This document shows, piece by piece, positions 37,834-52,891 of a stretch of 64,000 nt of DNA. The stretch's first letter is position 1. Every line of letters begins with the position of its first letter. Where the stretch lies: NCBI RefSeq assembly GCF_021278965.1, contig NZ_CP065589.1, positions 4,717,001 to 4,781,000 of the forward strand. The letters run 5' to 3'. A program made the position numbers and the translations under genes. The notes under the pieces were generated by a model, which had not been told where the DNA came from, ran no database searches, and was given only the letters and a program-made list of their open reading frames with translations. The stretch is from Chryseobacterium capnotolerans. Its GTDB lineage: Bacteria > Bacteroidota > Bacteroidia > Flavobacteriales > Weeksellaceae.

Positions 37834-37997
37834 TTTTTATCATCAAATAGAGCTTTCCATTCTCTTTTACTATTGACAAATTCCACAGATTAAAAAATGC
37901 AGTAAGTAATAACTTTTGAAAATTACTAAAGTAATTTTCATCTATTGTTATTTTATCATCTTGAATTGTAAATTATCATTTTCTTTTGTAATTGACA
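37834..37997 (+). repeat. Transposon right end with TnsB-site-like repeats
   Basis: Ends ...TTGTAATTGACA at 37997. On the - strand the core ATGATAAAAT or a close relative occurs at 37834-37843, 37950-37959 and 37970-37979, in inverted orientation to the left-end copies. This is the expected arrangement of TnsB sites at Tn7-type ends. Confidence 0.65.
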
Positions 37998-38002
37998 TCC
38001 CC
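37998..38002. repeat. Target-site duplication, right copy (TCCCC)
   Basis: Second copy of the 5-bp duplication, directly after the ACA end of the transposon and followed by comM sequence. Confidence 0.92.
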
Positions 38003-38861
38003 CACCGACAAGTGCGACGTCTGAAATTGTGTGATGCGGAGCTCTAAAGGGACGAACGGTCATTAATGAAGCTTCTGTTCCTACTTTACCTGCTACAGAA
38101 TGTATTTTTGTAGTCTCCAGCGCTTCTTTCAAGGTTAATGGAGGTAAAATACTCGGAACCCTTTTGGCCAACATTGTTTTTCCGCTTCCGGGAGGGCCAA
38201 TCAGAATGATATTATGACCTCCTGCGGCGGCAACTTCCATTGCTCTTTTTGCGGTTTCCTGTCCCTTCACTTCTGAGAAATCAAAGGGAAAGTCATTAAT
38301 TCTTTCCTGGAATTCTTTTTTGGTGTCTAATATTACTTTTTCAATAGGCTTTCCTTCATTAAAAAAATCAATAACCTGCTTTATATTTTCTACACCATAT
38401 ACGTCAAGATCACTTACAATAGCTGCTTCTCTTGCATTTTGAATGGGAAGAATAATTCCTTTAAAACCTTCTTCCCTAGCTTGAATGGCTATTGGCAAGA
38501 CGCCTTTAATAGGCTGCAGGCTTCCATCCAATGAAAGCTCCCCCATAATGATATAATTCTGAATTTCTTCGGCCAGAATCTGATCTGATGCGGCCAGAAT
38601 ACCAACAGCTATACTCAGGTCATATGCAGAACCTTCTTTTCTCAGGTCTGCGGGAGCCATATTGATGGTGATCTTCTTTCCGGGAATCTTGTAACCTACA
38701 TTTTTTAAGGCAGCAGAAATCCTGTAACTGCTTTCTTTTATTGCATTATCCGGAAGTCCTACTAAATGATATCCTACTCCGCCGGTATCTACATTTACTT
38801 CAATGGTTATCATCTGGGCCGCAACGCCATGAATGGCACTGCCATAAATTTTGATCAGCAT
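38003..38861 (-). pseudogene. comM: comM 5' fragment (N-terminal half), disrupted by transposon
   Basis: N-terminal half of ComM/YifB: MLIKIYGSAIHGVAAQMITIEV, the Lon-protease-like fold (VGLPDNAIKESSYRISAALKN, KITINMAPADLRKEGSAYDL), then AAA+ Walker A GPPGSGKT with IILIGPPGSGKTMLAKRVPSILPPL, and VRPFRAPHHTISDVALVGGG at the insertion point. Read through the transposon end it acquires 17 foreign residues and stops. Lacking Walker B and the lid domains, it should be non-functional. Confidence 0.93.
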
Positions 38862-41931: not shown

Positions 41932-42402
41932 TAAATATTTTGATAAATATCGCAAAAAACAGGAAAGAAACCTAGTCAATATTAATACTTTAGAATAAAT
42001 ATGGAGCCTTTTCATTATTGAATAATCAATAAAAAAGGAATATTGAATATTTTACAGGTCAGATCTAAAACACTTTTTATTATCTGACAGCCTGCACCTC
42101 ATTAAAAAATCCAGACAAAATCAAGTGGAAATAGCCAGAACATAGAGTCAGTAAATATAACGCCGGAATATTCCCATCATAAATTTACTACGCTTTACGA
42201 TTCATTGACTTTACAAACCGCTCTTTAACTTCCTCTATCACTTAATTCTTTTAAATAATAAACCCTTTATCCCTCTATTTAATCGATGAACGCCTTTAAC
42301 GGTTTTTTTTTAATTTTCATCTGATAAAACATCCATCTCGTCGAAAATAATTCTTTTCTCTTTCTGTGCTTTATAATTTTGAGGCATAGAAATCAGAAAA
42401 TA
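41932..42402. other. Intergenic region between divergent genes
   Basis: About 470 bp of non-coding sequence upstream of the receptor gene of the peptide cluster. The only feature recognised is the -7-like element listed at 42374. No hairpin or RNA gene could be supported. Confidence 0.45.
42374..42381 (+). promoter_or_regulatory. Candidate -7 element of the peptide cluster
   Basis: TAATTTTG matches the Bacteroidota -7 consensus TAnnTTTG and lies 21 bp before the receptor ATG. No convincing -33 partner was seen. Confidence 0.4.
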
Positions 42403-44766
42403 ATGAAAAAATCAAGTTTCCTGTGTATCGCACTTCTTAGTGCAACAGCAATAAATGCACAGAATATGCTTAATGGTAAAGTGACCGATACAAGAGGGCA
42501 ATCCGTTCCTTTTGCGTTAGTAAAAATATATTCTTCTGATAGTAAGACCAATGTTATTGCAGAAAAGATTACTGATGAGAATGGAGCTTTCAGCACACAA
42601 GGACTTAATCACGGAACTTATAATGTGATTACCTCTGCAAGTGGATATACTAATTCTTCTAAGGAATTTTTATTGAATAATGCTTCACAAAACATTTCTA
42701 TAGCCATAGAAAAAGAAAAAGTATCCGGAATTAAGGAAGTAGTTTTGGTTGTTAATAAGAAGAAAACTTTTGAAAGAAAAATAGACCGTTTTGTATTCAA
42801 TACAGAGAATTCTATTGCATCAAAAGGGGTAGACGGATTAGATGTATTAGCAGCAACTCCAATGGTAAAAGCGGATGACGAAGGAAATATAGAAATTATA
42901 GGTAAAAGTGCAGTTTCTATTATGATTAATGACAGACCTGTAAATCTTTCCGGAAAAGAACTTGTTTCTTACCTGAAGACCATCCGATCTGAAAATATTG
43001 AGAGAATTGAAGTCATTACTACTCCACCTGCAAAATATGAAGCTCAGGGAAACAGTGGAATCATCAATATTGTTTTGAAACAGAATTCAAGCATGGGCTT
43101 CAGTGGAAATATCTCCACCAGCTATCTGAGAAGATCCAGAAATGGTTATTCCAATAATGGTTCATTGAATTATCAGTCTAAAAAGGTCAATACCTCTTTA
43201 AGAGTGTCCCAATTCGACAATGAAAAGACAACCACTGAGGACCTATCTATTTATGCAGGGAATATTTTGAAAACGCAAAACAACCGACTGGATAAAACTA
43301 AAGGATACAATATCAATTATAGTATTGACTATAAAATCAATGATAAAACATCTATTGGAGCTATCTACAATTTCTCAGACACGGACACTGATGGTGATTC
43401 CAAAAATTTATCAAAATATTATCAAGGAAATACTCTTGATTCTACCGTAATTTCAAACTCTTATAATATAAGTAAGACAAAAAACAATCAGTTGAATATT
43501 TATTTTGAGAGAAAATTAGACAGCTTAGGCAAAAAATTATATTTGGGCGGAAATCTTTTTGATAGTCGAAACGATAATCCTTTTTCCTTAGCATCTGAAT
43601 CTAATGCCAACAGTATAAATTATCAGATCAATTCAAACTATAGATACAAAATCTATTCTGGTCAAGTGGATTTATACCTCCCTTTCAAATCATTTGTTGG
43701 AGAAATTGGTGGAAAGTATACCCATTTTAACACCAATACCGGGCTAGATTTCTTTATTAATAATAATGATATACCAATGTATGACAACAATAGAAGTAAT
43801 TTTTTTGATTATAACGAAGATAATTGGGCATCTTATATAACATTTTCTAAGTCATTCACAGAAAAACTGGAGGGTAAAGCCGGCCTTAGATATGAATATA
43901 CTGTTCTGAATGGAGTGGCCCGCAACAGCACTGAGGTAGACAACACCTATGGAAAGTGGTTCCCAAGTGTTTATCTTACTTATAAAGCAAATAAAAAGAA
44001 TATACTTACCCTAAGCTATTCTAAAAGAATTACACGTCCTAGTGCAAGAGCGCTAAACCCGACCACTATTTATTTGGATCCGTATGCTTATGTAATTGGA
44101 AACCCTTACCTAAAGCCATCTTTCAGTAATAACTTTGAACTTGGATACATCTTTAACAATAAGTTATCTGTAACGGCATATTATCAAATGAGTACTGATA
44201 ATTTCGGGCAGGTAGTTGACCTTGAAGGAACCAACCGGGTTGTAAAATATCTCAATAATTATGATGAAAATAGTTTAGGAATCAATGCAACCTATTCCAA
44301 CACATTTTTCAAAAGATGGGATATGTATGCTTCTGTAAATTATGCCTATATAGAATCCAAGGGAATTATTGACCAGGTAAAAGGATTGAGTTCAAACTCT
44401 TTATATTATTCTGTGAACAATACCGTTCACCTGAATTCAAGTAAGACGTTTTCTTTTCTTTTAAACTTCCTGAATTTTTTACCTCACACCAAAGGAAACT
44501 TTGATTTTGAAAACATATACAATCTTTCATCAGGGCTTAGAGTTTCTCTTTTTGAAAAGAAATTACAAGTAAACATGACCATCCAGGACATCTTAAAAGG
44601 AATGAAATTCAGAGGAAAGGCTCATTACACCAATTACTATACGTATTCTGATAATTATTATGATGCAAGAACCTTTAACATCAGTGTTACTTATCAATTT
44701 GGAAACAGTAAAGTAAAAGGAAACAACAAGCAAATAAAACTGGAAGAAGTAGACCGAACAAATTAA
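42403..44766 (+). CDS. TonB-receptor-like outer-membrane beta-barrel protein
   Basis: About 787 residues from the ATG at 42403, which begins the signal peptide (MKKSSFLCIALLSATAINAQ). Domains in order: carboxypeptidase-regulatory-like beta-sandwich (NMLNGKVTDTRGQSVPFALVKIY), a plug-like domain (ASKGVDGLDVLAATPMVKADDEGNIEIIGKSAVSIMINDRPVN ... ENIERIEVITTPPAKYEAQGNSGIINIVLK), and a C-terminal barrel of the OMP_b-brl_3 type. No TonB box was identified. It is the first gene on the strand of the peptide array, ending 24 bp before the first mini-gene. It probably imports or exports the peptide product, or recognises it; a role in immunity or uptake is inference from position. Confidence 0.82.
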   Translation: MKKSSFLCIALLSATAINAQNMLNGKVTDTRGQSVPFALVKIYSSDSKTNVIAEKITDENGAFSTQGLNHGTYNVITSASGYTNSSKEFLLNNASQNISIAIEKEKVSGIKEVVLVVNKKKTFERKIDRFVFNTENSIASKGVDGLDVLAATPMVKADDEGNIEIIGKSAVSIMINDRPVNLSGKELVSYLKTIRSENIERIEVITTPPAKYEAQGNSGIINIVLKQNSSMGFSGNISTSYLRRSRNGYSNNGSLNYQSKKVNTSLRVSQFDNEKTTTEDLSIYAGNILKTQNNRLDKTKGYNINYSIDYKINDKTSIGAIYNFSDTDTDGDSKNLSKYYQGNTLDSTVISNSYNISKTKNNQLNIYFERKLDSLGKKLYLGGNLFDSRNDNPFSLASESNANSINYQINSNYRYKIYSGQVDLYLPFKSFVGEIGGKYTHFNTNTGLDFFINNNDIPMYDNNRSNFFDYNEDNWASYITFSKSFTEKLEGKAGLRYEYTVLNGVARNSTEVDNTYGKWFPSVYLTYKANKKNILTLSYSKRITRPSARALNPTTIYLDPYAYVIGNPYLKPSFSNNFELGYIFNNKLSVTAYYQMSTDNFGQVVDLEGTNRVVKYLNNYDENSLGINATYSNTFFKRWDMYASVNYAYIESKGIIDQVKGLSSNSLYYSVNNTVHLNSSKTFSFLLNFLNFLPHTKGNFDFENIYNLSSGLRVSLFEKKLQVNMTIQDILKGMKFRGKAHYTNYYTYSDNYYDARTFNISVTYQFGNSKVKGNNKQIKLEEVDRTN

Positions 44767-44790
44767 TATTAACCATAAATACTTTAAGAA

Positions 44791-44853
44791 ATGACTCAAG
44801 TAGATAAACCTATCGACAACGATTTCTTCGATTTCAACCTTATCTGTGGATAA
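44791..44853 (+). CDS. Precursor peptide unit 1 (Gly form)
   Basis: Encodes MTQVDKPIDNDFFDFNLICG (20 residues). It is the reference Gly form, directly downstream of the receptor gene, with a single Cys at position 19 and an acidic Phe-rich centre (DNDFFDFN). Probable substrate of the SagB-like enzyme; no known family. Confidence 0.88.
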   Translation: MTQVDKPIDNDFFDFNLICG

Positions 44854-44909
44854 TCAACACGAAGCAAAGGAACTTTTAAAACAATTATTAACCTCTAATA
44901 CTTTAAGAA

Positions 44910-44972
44910 ATGACTCAAGTAGATAAACCTATCGACAACGATTTCTTCGATTTCAACCTTATCTGTAAATAA
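44910..44972 (+). CDS. Precursor peptide unit 2 (Lys form)
   Basis: Same first 19 residues as unit 1, ending Cys-Lys (TGT AAA TAA). Reference Lys form with the Lys-type spacer. Confidence 0.88.
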   Translation: MTQVDKPIDNDFFDFNLICK

Positions 44973-45028
44973 TTACAACAGAACAAAGGAATTTTTAAAA
45001 CAATTATTAACCTCTAATACTTTAAGAA

Positions 45029-45091
45029 ATGACTCAAGTAGATAAACCTATCGACAACGATTTCTTCGATTTCAACCTTATCTGTGGATAA
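45029..45091 (+). CDS. Precursor peptide unit 3 (Gly form)
   Basis: Identical in coding sequence to unit 1, including the Gly-type spacer that follows. Confidence 0.87.
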   Translation: MTQVDKPIDNDFFDFNLICG

Positions 45092-45147
45092 TCAACACGA
45101 AGCAAAGGAACTTTTAAAACAATTATTAACCTCTAATACTTTAAGAA

Positions 45148-45210
45148 ATGACTCAAGTAGATAAACCTATCGACAACGATTTCTTCGATTTCAACCTTAT
45201 CTGTAAATAA
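45148..45210 (+). CDS. Precursor peptide unit 4 (Lys form)
   Basis: Identical in coding sequence to unit 2; units 3-4 repeat the 1-2 dimer. Confidence 0.87.
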   Translation: MTQVDKPIDNDFFDFNLICK

Positions 45211-45266
45211 TTACAACAGAACAAAGGAATTTTTAAAACAATTATTAACCTCTAATACTTTAAGAA

Positions 45267-45329
45267 ATGACTCAAGTAGATAAACCTATCGACAACGATT
45301 TCTTCGACTTCAACCTTATCTGTGGATAA
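45267..45329 (+). CDS. Precursor peptide unit 5 (Gly form)
   Basis: Gly form with one silent change, GAT to GAC at Asp14; units 11 and 13 share it. Confidence 0.87.
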   Translation: MTQVDKPIDNDFFDFNLICG

Positions 45330-45385
45330 TCAACACGAAGCAAAGGAACTTTTAAAAAAATTATTAACCTCTAATACTTTAAGAA

Positions 45386-45448
45386 ATGACTCAAGTAGAT
45401 AAACCTATCGACAACGATTTCTTCGATTTCAACCTTATCTGTAAATAA
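45386..45448 (+). CDS. Precursor peptide unit 6 (Lys form)
   Basis: Lys form; its following spacer reads GGAACTTTT (usually Gly-type) after a Lys-type opening, a sign of recombination between unit types. Confidence 0.87.
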   Translation: MTQVDKPIDNDFFDFNLICK

Positions 45449-45504
45449 TTACAACAGAACAAAGGAACTTTTAAAACAATTATTAACCTCTAATACTTTA
45501 AGAA

Positions 45505-45567
45505 ATGACTCAAGTAGACAAACCTATCGACAACGATTTCTTCGATTTCAACCTTATCTGTAAATAA
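45505..45567 (+). CDS. Precursor peptide unit 7 (Lys form)
   Basis: Lys form with a silent GAT to GAC change at Asp5; breaks the strict G-K alternation. Confidence 0.87.
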   Translation: MTQVDKPIDNDFFDFNLICK

Positions 45568-45623
45568 TTACAACAGAACAAAGGAATTTTTAAAATAATT
45601 ATTAACCTCTAATACTTTAAGAA

Positions 45624-45686
45624 ATGACTCAAGTAGATAAACCTATCGACAACGATTTCTTCGATTTCAACCTTATCTGTGGATAA
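45624..45686 (+). CDS. Precursor peptide unit 8 (Gly form)
   Basis: Gly form, coding sequence as unit 1. The spacer before it carries AAAATAATT in place of AAAACAATT. Confidence 0.87.
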   Translation: MTQVDKPIDNDFFDFNLICG

Positions 45687-45742
45687 TCAACACGAAGCAA
45701 AGGAACTTTTAAAACAATTATTAACCTCTAATACTTTAAGAA

Positions 45743-45805
45743 ATGACTCAAGTAGATAAACCTATCGACAACGATTTCTTCGATTTCAACCTTATCTGTA
45801 AATAA
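45743..45805 (+). CDS. Precursor peptide unit 9 (Lys form)
   Basis: Lys form, coding sequence as unit 2. Confidence 0.87.
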   Translation: MTQVDKPIDNDFFDFNLICK

Positions 45806-45861
45806 TTACAACAGAACAAAGGAATTTTTAAAACAATTATTAACCTCTAATACTTTAAGAA

Positions 45862-45924
45862 ATGACTCAAGTAGATAAACCTATCGACAACGATTTCTTC
45901 GATTTCAACCTTATCTGTGGATAA
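45862..45924 (+). CDS. Precursor peptide unit 10 (Gly form)
   Basis: Gly form, coding sequence as unit 1; first of two adjacent Gly units. Confidence 0.87.
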   Translation: MTQVDKPIDNDFFDFNLICG

Positions 45925-45980
45925 TCAACACGAAGCAAAGGAACTTTTAAAACAATTATTAACCTCTAATACTTTAAGAA

Positions 45981-46043
45981 ATGACTCAAGTAGATAAACC
46001 TATCGACAACGATTTCTTCGACTTCAACCTTATCTGTGGATAA
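45981..46043 (+). CDS. Precursor peptide unit 11 (Gly form)
   Basis: Gly form with the silent GAC at Asp14. Confidence 0.87.
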   Translation: MTQVDKPIDNDFFDFNLICG

Positions 46044-46099
46044 TCAACACGAAGCAAAGGAACTTTTAAAACAATTATTAACCTCTAATACTTTAAGAA

Positions 46100-46162
46100 A
46101 TGACTCAAGTAGATAAACCTATCGACAACGATTTCTTCGATTTCAACCTTATCTGTAAATAA
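46100..46162 (+). CDS. Precursor peptide unit 12 (Lys form)
   Basis: Lys form, coding sequence as unit 2. Confidence 0.87.
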   Translation: MTQVDKPIDNDFFDFNLICK

Positions 46163-46218
46163 TTACAACAGAACAAAGGAATTTTTAAAACAATTATTAA
46201 CCTCTAATACTTTAAGAA

Positions 46219-46281
46219 ATGACTCAAGTAGATAAACCTATCGACAACGATTTCTTCGACTTCAACCTTATCTGTGGATAA
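46219..46281 (+). CDS. Precursor peptide unit 13 (Gly form)
   Basis: Gly form with the silent GAC at Asp14. Confidence 0.87.
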   Translation: MTQVDKPIDNDFFDFNLICG

Positions 46282-46337
46282 TCAACACGAAGCAAAGGAA
46301 CTTTTAAAACAATTATTAACCTCTAATACTTTAAGAA

Positions 46338-46400
46338 ATGACTCAAGTAGATAAACCTATCGACAACGATTTCTTCGATTTCAACCTTATCTGTGGATAA
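46338..46400 (+). CDS. Precursor peptide unit 14 (Gly form)
   Basis: Gly form followed by a mosaic spacer (Gly-type opening, Lys-type GGAATTTTT). Confidence 0.87.
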   Translation: MTQVDKPIDNDFFDFNLICG

Positions 46401-46456
46401 TCAACACGAAGCAAAGGAATTTTTAAAACAATTATTAACCTCTAATACTTTAAGAA

Positions 46457-46519
46457 ATGACTCAAGTAGATAAACCTATCGACAACGATTTCTTCGATTT
46501 CAACCTTATCTGTAAATAA
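46457..46519 (+). CDS. Precursor peptide unit 15 (Lys form)
   Basis: Lys form; its downstream spacer diverges (TTATTAAACTCAAAAACTTAAAAC), marking the end of the homogenised part of the array. Confidence 0.87.
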   Translation: MTQVDKPIDNDFFDFNLICK

Positions 46520-46574
46520 TTACAACAGAACAAAGGAACTTTTAAAACAATTATTAAACTCAAAAACTTAAAAC

Positions 46575-46637
46575 ATGACTCAAGTAGACAAACCTATCGA
46601 CAACGATTTTTTTGATTTCAATCTTATCTGTGGATAA
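46575..46637 (+). CDS. Precursor peptide unit 16 (Gly form, diverged DNA)
   Basis: Same 20-residue Gly peptide but with several silent changes (GAC at Asp5, TTT TTT at Phe12-13, AAT at Asn16). The protein is conserved while the DNA has drifted, which indicates selection on the peptide. Probably the older founder end of the array. Confidence 0.87.
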   Translation: MTQVDKPIDNDFFDFNLICG

Positions 46638-46693
46638 TTACAGTGAAAAATTAACTGAACTAAATTAAATACTAAAATCAAAAAAATTTAACA

Positions 46694-46780
46694 ATGACTA
46701 AAATAGAAAATCCTATTAATCACGATTTTTTCGATATTAACGTGATGTGTACTTACTTACCAGATTATCCTCAACAATAA
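46694..46780 (+). CDS. Variant precursor peptide with C-terminal extension (28 residues)
   Basis: Encodes MTKIENPINHDFFDINVMCT followed by YLPDYPQQ. It aligns with the array peptide at MT, PI, DFFD, N and the Cys at position 19, then has nine residues after the Cys. The alignment defines the conserved features of the family: MTxxxxPIxxDFFDxNxxC. It could be a second product or the ancestral precursor with a natural follower. Confidence 0.8.
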   Translation: MTKIENPINHDFFDINVMCTYLPDYPQQ

Positions 46781-46787
46781 CACCAAC

Positions 46788-46827
46788 AGAAGGAGTGATT
46801 TTTCACTCATGATTAATCACTCCTTCT
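46788..46827 (+). terminator. Stem-loop between precursor array and sagB-like gene
   Basis: Perfect 13-bp stem AGAAGGAGTGATT/AATCACTCCTTCT with a 14-nt loop, followed by TTAATAAAAAC. Likely an attenuator, partial terminator or RNA-stabilising hairpin that lets precursor mRNA exceed enzyme mRNA. It also rules out the upstream ATG at 46809 as the start of the oxidoreductase. Confidence 0.7.
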
Positions 46828-46847
46828 TTAATAAAAACTTTAATACT

Positions 46848-47900
46848 ATGAATATCTCACATAATTTCTTTGTATACTTTAAAAACAACGAGCCCATTTT
46901 ATTTAATTATAAAGACAAAAAAGAGTACAGTGTAAGAAAAGAATACCTTAAAACACTTATTGATTACTCGCAAACTGAAGAGCACCCTACTGCAGAGAAC
47001 GCAATTATCAATGATCTTATTACAGCTGATGTTCTAACCGAAAACAACAATCTGGAGGAACCTTACTTGCATTATTATGCTCATATGTTCAACTACATTA
47101 CTAAAGATACCTCTTTATCAATGTCAGATTCTACAGAAGAAGAATGGGCCAGCCAGTATCTTGATATCTGCAAAAGAGTAAAGAAACAGGAATTTCCAAG
47201 AAGAGGCCAGGTAGAAGACTATGAAACGGTATACAAATTACCAGAACCTACTCCAATACAAACAGACTTTTATGATACTTTAAAAAGGAGAAAAACAATC
47301 AGAGAATTTCAAGATACAGAAGCAAGTCTTGAACAGCTGAGCAACATGCTTTTTTACACCTTCGGTTATATTCACGGTGAAGAAGAAGAATACAAACCTT
47401 TTAGAAGAAGAAGCAGCCCTTCAGGAGGAAGTTTACAAATTATTGAGCCTTATATTACGGTATTCAATGTTGAAGGAGTTGAAAAAGGAGTTTATTGGTA
47501 TGAGCCTGAAACCCATTCTTTATGTAAGGTAACCGATGAGTTTTCTTATCAGGATTTAAGAGAATGTTTAGCGGGTCAGTTTTTCGGTGGTAAATGTTCA
47601 TTTGGAATCTTTTTCGCTGCTAATCTTGAAGTTTTAGCATGGAAATATAAAACTCCGAGAAACTTTAAAGTTGTATTATTAGAAGCAGGTCACTTCTCTC
47701 AAACGTCTCAATTGATTGCTGTATCTCAGTCCTTACAAACCTGGATTACGGGTGCATTCAAAGATTCTGCTATAGAAAAGTTCTGTAAAATGGACGGAAT
47801 CAAAAAAATACCTGTTTTTTTCACAGCTTACGGAAAAGGGGATTATTTATCTATGCACTCAATCATGAGAAAAAAAGTAGATGAGTATAGTTCTAACTAA
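46848..47900 (+). CDS. SagB-type flavin oxidoreductase
   Basis: About 350 residues: an N-terminal helical/wHTH-like region (NFFVYFKNNEPILFNYKDKKEYSV, about 6-100), then a nitroreductase-fold FMN domain with the SagB/ThcOx signatures KRRKTIREFQDTEASLEQLSNMLFYTFGY, RRRSSPSGGSLQIIEPYI, GVYWYEPETHSL and VLLEAGHFSQTSQLIAVSQSL. SagB enzymes oxidise azolines to azoles in thiazole/oxazole peptides. Here no YcaO cyclodehydratase is adjacent, so it may act on the single C-terminal Cys by another oxidation. The start at 46848 (MNISHNFF) is chosen because the longer frame begins inside a hairpin. Confidence 0.85.
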   Translation: MNISHNFFVYFKNNEPILFNYKDKKEYSVRKEYLKTLIDYSQTEEHPTAENAIINDLITADVLTENNNLEEPYLHYYAHMFNYITKDTSLSMSDSTEEEWASQYLDICKRVKKQEFPRRGQVEDYETVYKLPEPTPIQTDFYDTLKRRKTIREFQDTEASLEQLSNMLFYTFGYIHGEEEEYKPFRRRSSPSGGSLQIIEPYITVFNVEGVEKGVYWYEPETHSLCKVTDEFSYQDLRECLAGQFFGGKCSFGIFFAANLEVLAWKYKTPRNFKVVLLEAGHFSQTSQLIAVSQSLQTWITGAFKDSAIEKFCKMDGIKKIPVFFTAYGKGDYLSMHSIMRKKVDEYSSN

Positions 47901-47948
47901 AAATTCCGATAGCATCTGTGAAAATTATTAATCAAAATATAAATTAAT

Positions 47949-49619
47949 ATGAATTCACAAAAAGAACTGCTAAAAAGGTTTTTAAAATATATCAACCCTT
48001 ACGTTAAAGAAGAAATTATTCTTTTTGTTTTGATGATTATTTCAAGTGCTGGGACATTGGTAACACCCTATATGCTGAAAGTCATCATTGATGATGTATT
48101 TCCTAAGGGAAGTTATCAGGACCTTGTGATATTGATAGGAGTATTGGTAGGAATATATGTTCTTCAGGTCATTTTCTCTTTGATTTCTGATGTAATGTCT
48201 ACTACTGTAAGCAAGAAGATCTCTTCAGACATCCGGGAAGAAGCTTTTGCCAATATTTTAAATAAAGATGTATCTTTCTTTAAGAACTCAAAAGTTGGAG
48301 AATTGGTATTTACCCTGATGAATGATGTGGATAATATCCAGCTGACAATTTCTTCATTACTGATCAGATCAATAAAAAACATCATTATTCTGATCGGAGT
48401 AGTCATAATGCTTTTTATACTGGATTACAAACTTACATTATTAAGTCTCATCCTTCTTCCTGCCGTTGTTCTGGTGATTAAGGCTTTTGCCCCTCATATA
48501 AAAAAGAATTTTAAAGGAATACAACATTTGGAAGGACATCTCAATAATTATCTTGTAGAAAGAATAAAGAATATCAGAGTGATTAAAAGCTATGGAACCA
48601 ACCATTTTGAAATGCTTAATATCAAAAAACAGCATAGTGATCTCGTTGGAAAACATTCAAGAGGTACATTTGTAAGCGGTCTCAACACCGGTGCATCTTC
48701 CCTGCTCATGTCCTTAGCCCCTGTCTTAGTGTTATCTTATGGTGGATATCAGGTTTTTCAAAATACGATGAGTGTAGGAGCTCTTATTGCCTTCATACAA
48801 TACCTTAACAGACTGTTTACTCCTACTGTTGAGATTGTATCTACTCATAATCAATTCTCGAAATCACTTATTTCAATGAAAAGGGTCTCAGAGTATTTTG
48901 ATGAAACAAAAAAAACAGTAAATGAATCATTAGAGCCTGAGAGACAAAGTATTCATGAAATTATCTTTCAAAACATATCTATTAATCATGCCGGAACAGA
49001 TATTTTAAAAGAAATAAACTTATCTTTCGACTATGGAAAAACCTATATCCTGAGTGGAAAGAGCGGAAGTGGAAAATCATCTATCATTAATTTGTTATGT
49101 GGTTTTGCAGAGCCAACGGAAGGTCAGATATTAATCAACAATGAAAATATCAAAGAAAATACGTATTGGCAGAATGAATATTGCCTGATAGAAAAAGAAA
49201 ACCAATTATTTCATGATACCATACGCAATAATATCCAGTATGGAACTGATAATAGCAGATTTGAGCTTGATGAAATCATAAAATATGTTCAGCTGGAAGA
49301 TGCTATAAAAAAATTGGAAAAAGGACCAGACAGCCTCATTTCTTTCAGTGGTGGAACATTTTCAGACGGACAGAAACAGCGCCTATCTATTGCAAGAGCA
49401 ATTAACAGATCTCCATCTGTATTTATATTTGATGAATCTACAGCATCATTGGATGCAAAACTGGAGAATGAAATTATTAAAACCATTCGTCTCCTTTTCC
49501 CCGGATCTATCATTATTATTGTTTCTCACAGATTAGAAACTCTTGAATTGGCAGATCACATTTTTAAATTAGATAAAGGAAATATTGAGCAGCAAGATGT
49601 GCTCTCAGAAGCAATATAA
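47949..49619 (+). CDS. ABC exporter (fused permease-ATPase)
   Basis: A 556-residue half-transporter: six-helix type I exporter domain (about 1-310), then the nucleotide-binding domain with Walker A GKSGSGKSS, signature SFSGGTFSDGQKQR (a variant of LSGGQ), Walker B VFIFDESTASLD and H-loop VSHR. It lacks an N-terminal C39 peptidase, so any leader cleavage must be done elsewhere. It is probably the inner-membrane exporter of the array peptide. It lies 48 bp after the oxidoreductase and 22 bp before the protease gene, in one operon. Confidence 0.88.
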   Translation: MNSQKELLKRFLKYINPYVKEEIILFVLMIISSAGTLVTPYMLKVIIDDVFPKGSYQDLVILIGVLVGIYVLQVIFSLISDVMSTTVSKKISSDIREEAFANILNKDVSFFKNSKVGELVFTLMNDVDNIQLTISSLLIRSIKNIIILIGVVIMLFILDYKLTLLSLILLPAVVLVIKAFAPHIKKNFKGIQHLEGHLNNYLVERIKNIRVIKSYGTNHFEMLNIKKQHSDLVGKHSRGTFVSGLNTGASSLLMSLAPVLVLSYGGYQVFQNTMSVGALIAFIQYLNRLFTPTVEIVSTHNQFSKSLISMKRVSEYFDETKKTVNESLEPERQSIHEIIFQNISINHAGTDILKEINLSFDYGKTYILSGKSGSGKSSIINLLCGFAEPTEGQILINNENIKENTYWQNEYCLIEKENQLFHDTIRNNIQYGTDNSRFELDEIIKYVQLEDAIKKLEKGPDSLISFSGGTFSDGQKQRLSIARAINRSPSVFIFDESTASLDAKLENEIIKTIRLLFPGSIIIIVSHRLETLELADHIFKLDKGNIEQQDVLSEAI

Positions 49620-49641: not shown

Positions 49642-50481
49642 ATGAAAAAGATACTTTTTGCATTTTTATTATCAATGACTACTCAGGCATTTTCTCAAAA
49701 TGTACCATTCAAAACCTTACCTTCGGGCCACATTATTGTTCCCGCAAAAATAGAAGGGATAGAAGGAAATTTCATACTGGATACCGGAGCTGGAATCAAT
49801 CTTTTTTTTAATGATTTTGCAGCTAAATTCTCTCAAAAACCATCTTCTTATAATTTCTTCACAGGCTTCAGAGCAACCGGAGAGCGTATTGATATTCCTC
49901 TTTTTACAAGCAAGGAAACCATCTTAGGAAAAAATAGCTTTAAAAATATCCCTTTCTCAACTGTAGATATGAAAATACCCGGAATTGACGGATTGATTTC
50001 ATTAAAAACATTTGAAAAACAAGATCTTGTGATTGACTTCAAAGCTCAGGAAATAAGTTTTTCTGACAAGGCTCCCCAATCTTATTCAAAATCAATTGAT
50101 ATTTTCCTTTCTACACAACAGGATGATACATTAGATATCTTTACCTATGTCACCTTAAATAATAAATACAAAATAAAAGTATTACTAGACTCCGGAGCAG
50201 GCAATAACTCCTTCTGGTTCAGTGATAAATTAATCTCCACCCTTAACCTCGACACCAAAAATATGCAGATTATTGAAAAAGAAAGTGAATTCAATAAATC
50301 TGTGAAAACAAAAATCTACAAAGGCAGCATTTCCCAAATTTCAAATGAATACGCTACTTTAAAAGACCAGAATGTGATGTTTGTAGAAAATTTAATCTAT
50401 GAGGGTAAAACAAGCATCAATTGGTTAGGTAATAAAATTGTTATCAGTATAAAAAATAAGAAAATATATATTCTCGAATAA
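49642..50481 (+). CDS. Secreted retropepsin-like aspartyl protease
   Basis: About 279 residues from the ATG at 49642, which begins a signal peptide (MKKILFAFLLSMTTQAFSQ). Two aspartyl-protease motifs are present: FILDTGAGINLFF (first lobe) and VLLDSGAGNNSFWF (second lobe), with the PSGHIIVPAKIEG opening of bacterial retropepsin-like proteins. Periplasmic or exported. In this context it may cut the peptide during or after export, or serve as immunity. The upstream frame beginning at 49585 is not used. Confidence 0.8.
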   Translation: MKKILFAFLLSMTTQAFSQNVPFKTLPSGHIIVPAKIEGIEGNFILDTGAGINLFFNDFAAKFSQKPSSYNFFTGFRATGERIDIPLFTSKETILGKNSFKNIPFSTVDMKIPGIDGLISLKTFEKQDLVIDFKAQEISFSDKAPQSYSKSIDIFLSTQQDDTLDIFTYVTLNNKYKIKVLLDSGAGNNSFWFSDKLISTLNLDTKNMQIIEKESEFNKSVKTKIYKGSISQISNEYATLKDQNVMFVENLIYEGKTSINWLGNKIVISIKNKKIYILE

Positions 50482-50507: not shown

Positions 50508-50541
50508 ATGTCATAAGGAAGTTTCTATTTTCTTATGACAT
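50508..50541 (+). terminator. Hairpin at the end of the peptide cluster
   Basis: Stem ATGTCATAAG/CTTATGACAT with a 14-nt loop, 26 bp after the protease stop. The U tract is weak (ATTGTTT), so it is a candidate terminator only. Confidence 0.55.
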
Positions 50542-50697
50542 ATTGTTTAATAAAAGAGATGTTGAAATGATGAGGATGAAAATTAAATTACAACAACCCT
50601 AAGCCATGTACAACATCACCAATAAACAAATGATTATTAAACTTTTATACTTTCCCTAAAATCATATTTTCTCAGATTCTTCGTTTTTTGATCCAGA

Positions 50698-52515: not shown

Positions 52516-52891
52516 ATGGAAAATATGTTAAAAATATTTGGCGCAGATTCCAAAACAAGAGTTGAAAATGCAATAGAAGACCTACAAGTTGGCAAAGGTG
52601 TTTTGCTAATTGACAATGAAGACAGAGAGAATGAAGGTGATCTTATTTTCTCCGCAGAACACATGAATGAAGAAGATATGATCCAGATGATCCGGTATTG
52701 CAGCGGTGTAGTCTGCCTTTGTCTTACCCATGAAAAAGCTGATGAATGATGACGGAACCATGTCCAGGTTTCCACAGATTGTAGTATTTGCATTAAAGCA
52801 TGATTTAATGGTTTTATCCATACAAGATATCATCGAATACAGACAAATGCACACTTCGGATAACTTATTAGCAGAAAATGTTTTACAATAA
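52516..52891 (+). pseudogene. ribB: ribB pseudogene with internal deletion
   Basis: 3,4-dihydroxy-2-butanone-4-phosphate synthase, the riboflavin precursor enzyme. The N-terminal part is clear: VENAIEDLQVGKGVLLIDNEDRENEGDLIFSAEHM, with the metal-binding Glu/Asp cluster, to [16 protein letters not shown] near residue 77. The C-terminal part [20 protein letters not shown] ... [10 protein letters not shown] resumes out of frame at about 52743 and runs to 52891. The middle of about 90-110 codons, including the catalytic His region, is missing, and the join sits in a short GATGA repeat (GATGAATGATGA). It is non-functional as read; another ribB or ribBA copy is probable elsewhere. Confidence 0.85.

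Follow-up and report, generated by a model that had tools for sequence, protein, structure and literature searches.

The DNA analysed here (the window) is a stretch of 64,000 nucleotides of the 5.36 Mb Chryseobacterium capnotolerans genome; at its center of interest are a tandem array of very short genes and the gene for a SagB-type dehydrogenase that follows them, which we read as probable partners in the biosynthesis of a ribosomally synthesized and post-translationally modified peptide (RiPP). The array occupies positions 44767..46638 on the forward strand, which is also the strand of the flanking parts of the locus, from the barrel to the LanB-like stretch (period 119, 15.7 copies, 94% matches, score 3247 in Tandem Repeats Finder). 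Parsing from 44791 onward yields 17 open reading frames (ORFs), that is, 16 of 20 amino acids (the first at 44791-44853, the last at 46575-46637) and a longer relative of 28 residues at 46694..46780 (MTKIENPINHDFFDINVMCTYLPDYPQQ), just as an initial annotation of this DNA had described. Each unit has its own upstream region, and the spacing is 119 bp throughout, except for 118 bp at the step to unit 16. The 20-residue peptides consist of MTQVDKPIDNDFFDFNLIC followed by Gly (n=9; MTQVDKPIDNDFFDFNLICG) or Lys (n=7; MTQVDKPIDNDFFDFNLICK), so they end in Cys-Gly or Cys-Lys, and all use the stop codon TAA. This Gly/Lys difference at codon 20 is the sole amino acid difference among the 16 units; codons 1-19 contain five variable columns, every one a silent third position. 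Thr2 is the only Ser or Thr in the 16 units, whereas the long units do contain Ser/Thr. Searching the whole genome with the 20-mer (E ≤ 10) recovered nothing beyond the 17 units, and a known RNA was ruled out as the identity of the region because an Rfam scan of 42000-48000 gave zero matches at the gathering threshold. The array thus illustrates the extreme amplification and homogenization of a 63-bp gene.

The SagB-type dehydrogenase (46848..47900; 350 residues) exceeds the cut-off of TIGR03605 (98.8 bits against 78.4), and its best NCBIfam match, TIGR04511 (SagB_rel_DH_2), stays below its own (119.5 bits against 240); both scans began at the first in-frame ATG, 46809. The start is most likely 46848 (MNISHNFF), to judge from the family alignment, because this start is common to the family and the ATG at 46809 falls inside a predicted hairpin. 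The relatives of the enzyme in the PDB are the oxidases BmdC, CyaGox and McbC as well as nitroreductases; the Lys-Tyr pair that McbC uses is kept, with K266 invariant in the family alignment. The Nitroreductase family was matched in 25/25 SagB members, and no MNIO family is among the 10 families listed for them. The hairpin itself (46788..46827; −22.3 kcal/mol) lies between the array and SagB; a stem is present in the corresponding gap in all six loci that were folded, and an inverted repeat is visible by eye in a seventh, that of the Bergeyella-like genome described below. The hairpin may be a partial terminator that would set many peptides to few enzymes.

Upstream, a TonB-dependent-receptor-like outer membrane barrel (42403..44766; CarboxypepD_reg, OMP_b-brl_3 and a weak plug match) ends 24 bp before the first unit (PF14905, 5.5e-83; PF00593, 1.5e-18; Plug, 21 bits, below the cut-off of 23.9). 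Downstream of SagB are an MsbA-like ABC exporter (47949..49619; Pfam and NCBIfam matches, with no C39 peptidase family among the former) and a retropepsin-like aspartyl protease (49642..50481; PF13650, 1.6e-12) that is probably secreted, given an N-terminus that by eye resembles a signal peptide. The domain scans thus bear out the four neighbors that the initial annotation had named. The 46 bp at 50508..50553, which begin 26 bp past the protease stop, resemble codons about 10-25 of a LanB gene.

The peptides are not confined to the window. A peptide profile gives strong matches in 5/173 Chryseobacterium genomes, counting that of the window, and in 6/320 genomes of the family; in the genus, four further genomes each had one weak match (E 0.05-0.07). 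The genus relatives with the locus are C. aurantiacum F30, C. soli DSM 19298, C. arachidis DSM 27619 and Chryseobacterium sp. Leaf405; the sixth carrier is a metagenome-assembled genome of Cruoricaptor ignavus (80% complete), and the seventh, a Bergeyella-like genome, carries a single divergent unit (MKKVQKTLPPSLDFFDVNIRCQSI) followed by a SagB gene whose frame is broken in the assembly. Together these seven genomes, from three genera, contain 52 units of the DFFDxNxxC type: 48 from the genus profile search, two from Cruoricaptor, and two (one in C. soli and the Bergeyella-like unit) recovered by reading and pattern only; in the five genus carriers, the hidden Markov model search of the genus also returned two fragments, a unit cut by a contig end and a truncated Leaf405 unit. 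F13, and F or Y at position 12, are present in all 52 units, N16 in 51 and Cys19 in 51, counts that are conditioned on a search motif in which F13 was fixed, C or S was allowed and few alternatives were accepted at other sites. The exception at Cys19 is the first C. soli unit (L065:6699-6803), in which Ser replaces Cys (MNPILKGAHNQFFNVNTVSWTPTKPELPEQNIEY). Cys19 is followed by G, K, R, W, F, P, T or Q, and the counterpart of the long window unit in C. aurantiacum is MTIIEHPIDHDFFDINVMCTHLPDYPQQ. Neighboring units follow one another at steps of 111-125 bp in all loci, including C. soli, although its ORF is 30 bp longer; the lone exception, 218 bp, spans the truncated Leaf405 unit.

When every pair among 15 chosen units is summed, the proportion of synonymous differences (pS) is 0.738 and that of nonsynonymous differences (pN) is 0.206; pN is well below pS, so the peptide itself is kept, not merely the DNA. 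To judge from these comparisons, the array is coding and conserved. Loss of the reading frames or of the Cys in related loci, named at the outset as the observation that would speak against a precursor family, was not seen apart from the single Ser unit of C. soli, and the proposal of ribosomal peptide precursors is strengthened by frames that stay open in the relatives and by the recurrence of the motif next to SagB.

The SagB-type enzyme is encoded by the gene directly after the peptides in 7/7 genomes. In Chryseobacterium, the order is barrel, array, hairpin, SagB, ABC exporter and aspartyl protease; barrel orthologs (79-88% identical) lie directly upstream of the units in 4/4 relatives, with the array of C. 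aurantiacum and C. soli cut by contig ends, so that barrel and SagB are on separate contigs. The order in Cruoricaptor is barrel, two units, hairpin, SagB, a small gene and a second barrel; the Bergeyella-like genome has a unit, SagB and a barrel, in that order. PF14905 barrels are found in these two loci as well. As read from gene order, the core common to the three genera is the peptide, SagB and a PF14905 barrel. Searches with SagB itself identified 7/148 genomes of the genus (1e-10; the window's own counted, two distant), 9/320 of the family (1e-20; two distant) and 3/395 of an order sample (1e-20), the last being the window's own, the Bergeyella-like genome and one distant relative. The C. 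aurantiacum SagB is 90% identical to that of the window, and a relative with 70% identity comes from a record titled Candidatus Ornithobacterium hominis (P0023). Separately, distant SagB relatives (about 30% identity) in two genera (L020:7452-8994 and L119:7667-9181) come after a 112-residue peptide that ends in SLPILPVVF(V/I)FIPIFAY and is Cys-free in both; a protein of ~305 residues follows, and then a gene that reads like an ABC ATPase. A Pfam scan of six L020 neighbors gave no YcaO (the scan covered these neighbors, not the genomes), and this pair is a further possible case of a SagB that works without YcaO.

No YcaO was found in the carriers whose SagB is intact: PF02624 is unmatched in 6/6 such genomes (among them Cruoricaptor, only 80% complete), and the same search found matches in 5/14 control genomes, so the search works. 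The seventh carrier, with the frame-broken SagB, encodes a YcaO elsewhere in its genome. We consider it very likely that the peptides are RiPP precursors and likely that SagB is their maturase; that SagB carries out a two-electron oxidation without YcaO is a reasonable, if less secure, expectation. The peptide and a stand-alone SagB probably constitute a new conserved RiPP family; searches among openly licensed papers listed none whose title or abstract start treats it.

The explanation that we favor overall, with a probability of about 0.6, is a RiPP pathway in which mini-precursors are oxidized by a stand-alone SagB, exported by the ABC protein and proteolyzed in the periplasm. Recognition would depend on the N-terminal part of the peptide through DFFDxN, with the N-terminal domain of SagB as its possible reader; the enzyme would perform a two-electron oxidation (expected −2 Da) at Cys19 or Phe13 without a YcaO cyclodehydratase. 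The ABC protein would take the peptide to the periplasm, where the aspartyl protease would free a short C-terminal product containing the Cys, and the barrel would move this product across the outer membrane, in or out. Many gene copies together with the hairpin would provide an excess of substrate over enzyme. The peptides may be exported in large amounts, as the initial annotation had proposed. In the relatives, LanB may additionally dehydrate Ser/Thr residues of the long units, a step that would have been lost in the window strain. The description of the precursors as almost leaderless is doubtful: with DFFDxN as the conserved block, residues 1-16 may form the leader and leave a core of just about four residues.

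The role of the barrel allows a further proposal about function that is compatible with this pathway, namely that the product is a methanobactin-like metal chelator that is re-imported through the barrel. A TonB-receptor-like barrel adjoins the peptides in 6/7 genomes and in the remaining one stands beyond SagB, the product would contain Cys, and an exporter is present in Chryseobacterium; but similar barrels (27-29% identity) also accompany LanB gene clusters in two further genomes, and we regard the chelator as somewhat unlikely.

The N-terminal domain of SagB (its first 95 residues) is a possible RiPP recognition element (RRE). Aligned with hhalign against PqqD rows, the N-terminus scored 25.4 (15 rows, some misread) and 18.7 (30 rows); in the 30-row run, 13 other SagB windows scored ≤14.3 and 22 LanB windows ≤16.2. 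BmdC is described as bearing an N-terminal remnant RRE (PMC8795117).

Several observations weigh against the pathway as we draw it. The system is patchy, with strong matches confined to 5/173 genus genomes. No window-like exporter or protease was found near SagB in Cruoricaptor (10 ORFs, the whole 11.6-kb contig) or in the Bergeyella-like genome (16 ORFs, 18 kb). The SagB N-terminus has no PqqD match in Pfam and no RRE among its PDB sequence matches, and two LanB windows at 160-298, which we take to be the location of the LanB RRE, scored higher (26.8 and 26.1). Finally, the deletion of LanB that is described below could mean that the pathway is decaying in the window strain.

The chemistry of the favored pathway turns on which residue is oxidized. 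The initial annotation had placed the modification at or near Cys19; this does not follow from the conservation of that residue (51/52), because F12/Y12, F13 and N16 prove equally conserved when the same search is used. PMC12636437 reports that PflD has a nitroreductase domain that makes Z-dehydrophenylalanine at Phe7, beside Asp8, without YcaO; that paper describes nitroreductases without an associated YcaO as rare and uncharacterized and suggests dehydroamino acids as their product. The conserved block of the peptides holds F-F-D, and Phe13 is a candidate site because F-F-D resembles the Phe7-Asp8 site of PflD. Cys19, at less than even odds, is slightly more probable than Phe12/13, and a site elsewhere or another outcome is about as probable as Phe12/13.

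If Cys19 is the site, the peptides could instead belong to an azole pathway, in which Cys19 becomes a thiazole and SagB oxidizes a thiazoline that is formed spontaneously, by SagB itself or by an unrecognized cyclodehydratase. BmdC, a SagB-type oxidase that is among the PDB relatives, dehydrogenates a thiazoline made by another enzyme (PMC8795117), and azole chemistry would tolerate the C. soli unit with Ser for Cys. The lack of a PF02624 match in all six carriers with an intact SagB and the Cys-free peptide beside the distant SagB relatives argue against this pathway, which we consider unlikely.

The loci of the relatives extend beyond the protease. A full-length LanB, a histidine kinase and a LytTR regulator follow it in 4/4 other Chryseobacterium loci (the domains of all three were scanned in two of the four). 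In the window, other genes follow the LanB-like 46 bp, which match the LanB of C. aurantiacum and Leaf405 at 91% over 46 bp, that of C. arachidis and C. soli at 89% over 44 bp, and the other LanB copy of the window genome at just 83% over 29 bp. Because a LanB-like stretch lies past the protease and is followed by other genes, the LanB-kinase-regulator block, on this comparison, has been deleted in the window strain and has left a 46-bp scar. LanB was found neither in Cruoricaptor (80% complete) nor in the Bergeyella-like genome, and the block occurs without a SagB match in nine other Chryseobacterium genomes, in two of which tandem copies of another, Ser-containing peptide family lie upstream on the opposite strand. 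By its distribution, then, LanB is accessory to the pathway, because it is lost in the window, not found in the other two genera and present elsewhere without SagB.

This distribution also bears on the proposal that the peptides are LanB substrates in the relatives, by dehydration or by amino acid addition as in peptide aminoacyl-tRNA ligases (PEARLs), with SagB as the accessory. The block is present in four of four relatives, and every one of these loci includes one or more long units with Ser/Thr past the Cys, whereas Cruoricaptor, without LanB, has short units only; but the Bergeyella-like unit has a Ser past the Cys without LanB, so with seven genomes the association is at most a hint. The short units lack Ser/Thr near the C-terminus, and those of C. 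aurantiacum have none whatever. A PEARL is ruled out because the LanB of two relatives carries the Lant_dehydr_C elimination domain, which according to PMC11962472 is typically missing from PEARLs. We judge the LanB-type pathway quite unlikely.

A second copy of the LanB block lies 360 kb away in the window genome (G000:C1:4398095-4401059), with LanB in three frames. As a working partner it is excluded by these frames, by an affinity to the Leaf405 and C. arachidis LanB closer than to that of C. aurantiacum, and by a relative of another peptide family upstream; we read it as another system. This LanB (L063:6072-9060; G000:C1:4398071-4401059) has its kinase and regulator open, and its three frames could reflect decay or an assembly error. 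Beside it stands a relative of a 43-residue peptide (MSNKFDNQSLTEALKTVKLEERQEMINPAASEAADAISVSFDS), of which there are four copies at L102:11212-11893 and two at L103:3-250 (one truncated where the contig ends); these copies are oriented divergently to a LanB-kinase-regulator block and are maybe another array-type RiPP. Another split LanB is at G000:C1:4121420-4124446 (L064). The scar and the three-frame LanB of the same family might indicate that the locus is a decaying relic in the window strain following LanB loss, but the 16 open, nearly identical units and the open SagB, exporter and protease make this very unlikely. That the peptides are unmodified secreted thiol peptides, for example signals, with SagB acting on another substrate, would suit the short peptides, the exporter, the protease and the LytTR kinase-regulator pair downstream in four relatives, but is highly improbable when SagB is the next gene in 7/7 genomes, even without an exporter, protease or LanB block nearby. 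The initial annotation was sound on the array and on the RiPP reading; it had missed the deleted LanB block, the absence of YcaO and the Phe alternative.

Elsewhere in the window, a YifB-like gene (37956-38861) spans just the first 284 of 499 model positions (the C. aurantiacum version has 223 residues), and an open piece at 52525-52749 resembles, by eye, the start of a RibB-type riboflavin gene and runs into stops.

As in RiPP loci generally, short conserved precursor genes here adjoin a peptide-modifying enzyme. Linear azol(in)e peptides of the streptolysin S and microcin B17 type combine SagB with YcaO; the window likewise has a SagB-type dehydrogenase beside a short precursor, but it differs in having no YcaO (0/6 genomes), a single Cys and tandem mini-precursors. 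As in class I lanthipeptides of Bacteroidota, a LanB adjoins the operon in four relatives; unlike them, the LanB of the window is a scar, the cores of the short units lack Ser/Thr, and no LanC is among the genes scanned (10 window genes, plus LanB, kinase and regulator from two relatives; the scan covered these genes, not the genomes). Graspetide branch 6 loci also include a SagB-like enzyme, as described in PMC8939145, but with ATP-grasp enzymes, none of which is among the genes scanned here. BmdC and ThcOx (CyaGox) are solved relatives with RRE-like and oxidase domains (PMC8795117); unlike the enzyme proposed here, BmdC receives its thiazoline from another enzyme. The pfl/pos RiPPs of Pseudomonas, as described in PMC12636437, share a YcaO-free nitroreductase-fold enzyme and Phe-Asp in the substrate, but PflD is fused to an MNIO and occurs with an HEXXH enzyme, whereas SagB is stand-alone with another N-terminal domain and its precursors are about 20-34 residues, unlike those of pfl/pos. 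In the boldest reading, slightly less likely than not, the locus would represent a new RiPP class: a stand-alone SagB that reads the leader would dehydrogenate Phe13, or Cys19 to a dehydrocysteine-type group, in tandem precursors of ~20-34 residues, and a dedicated TonB-type barrel would carry the liberated product, a Cys-containing peptide of a few residues that could be a metal chelator. The usual role assigned to SagB-type enzymes is to complete azoles after a YcaO has acted. In three genera, a SagB is now seen by itself beside a tiny probable substrate, and the question of what YcaO-free nitroreductases do in RiPP loci is thereby narrowed to two genes.

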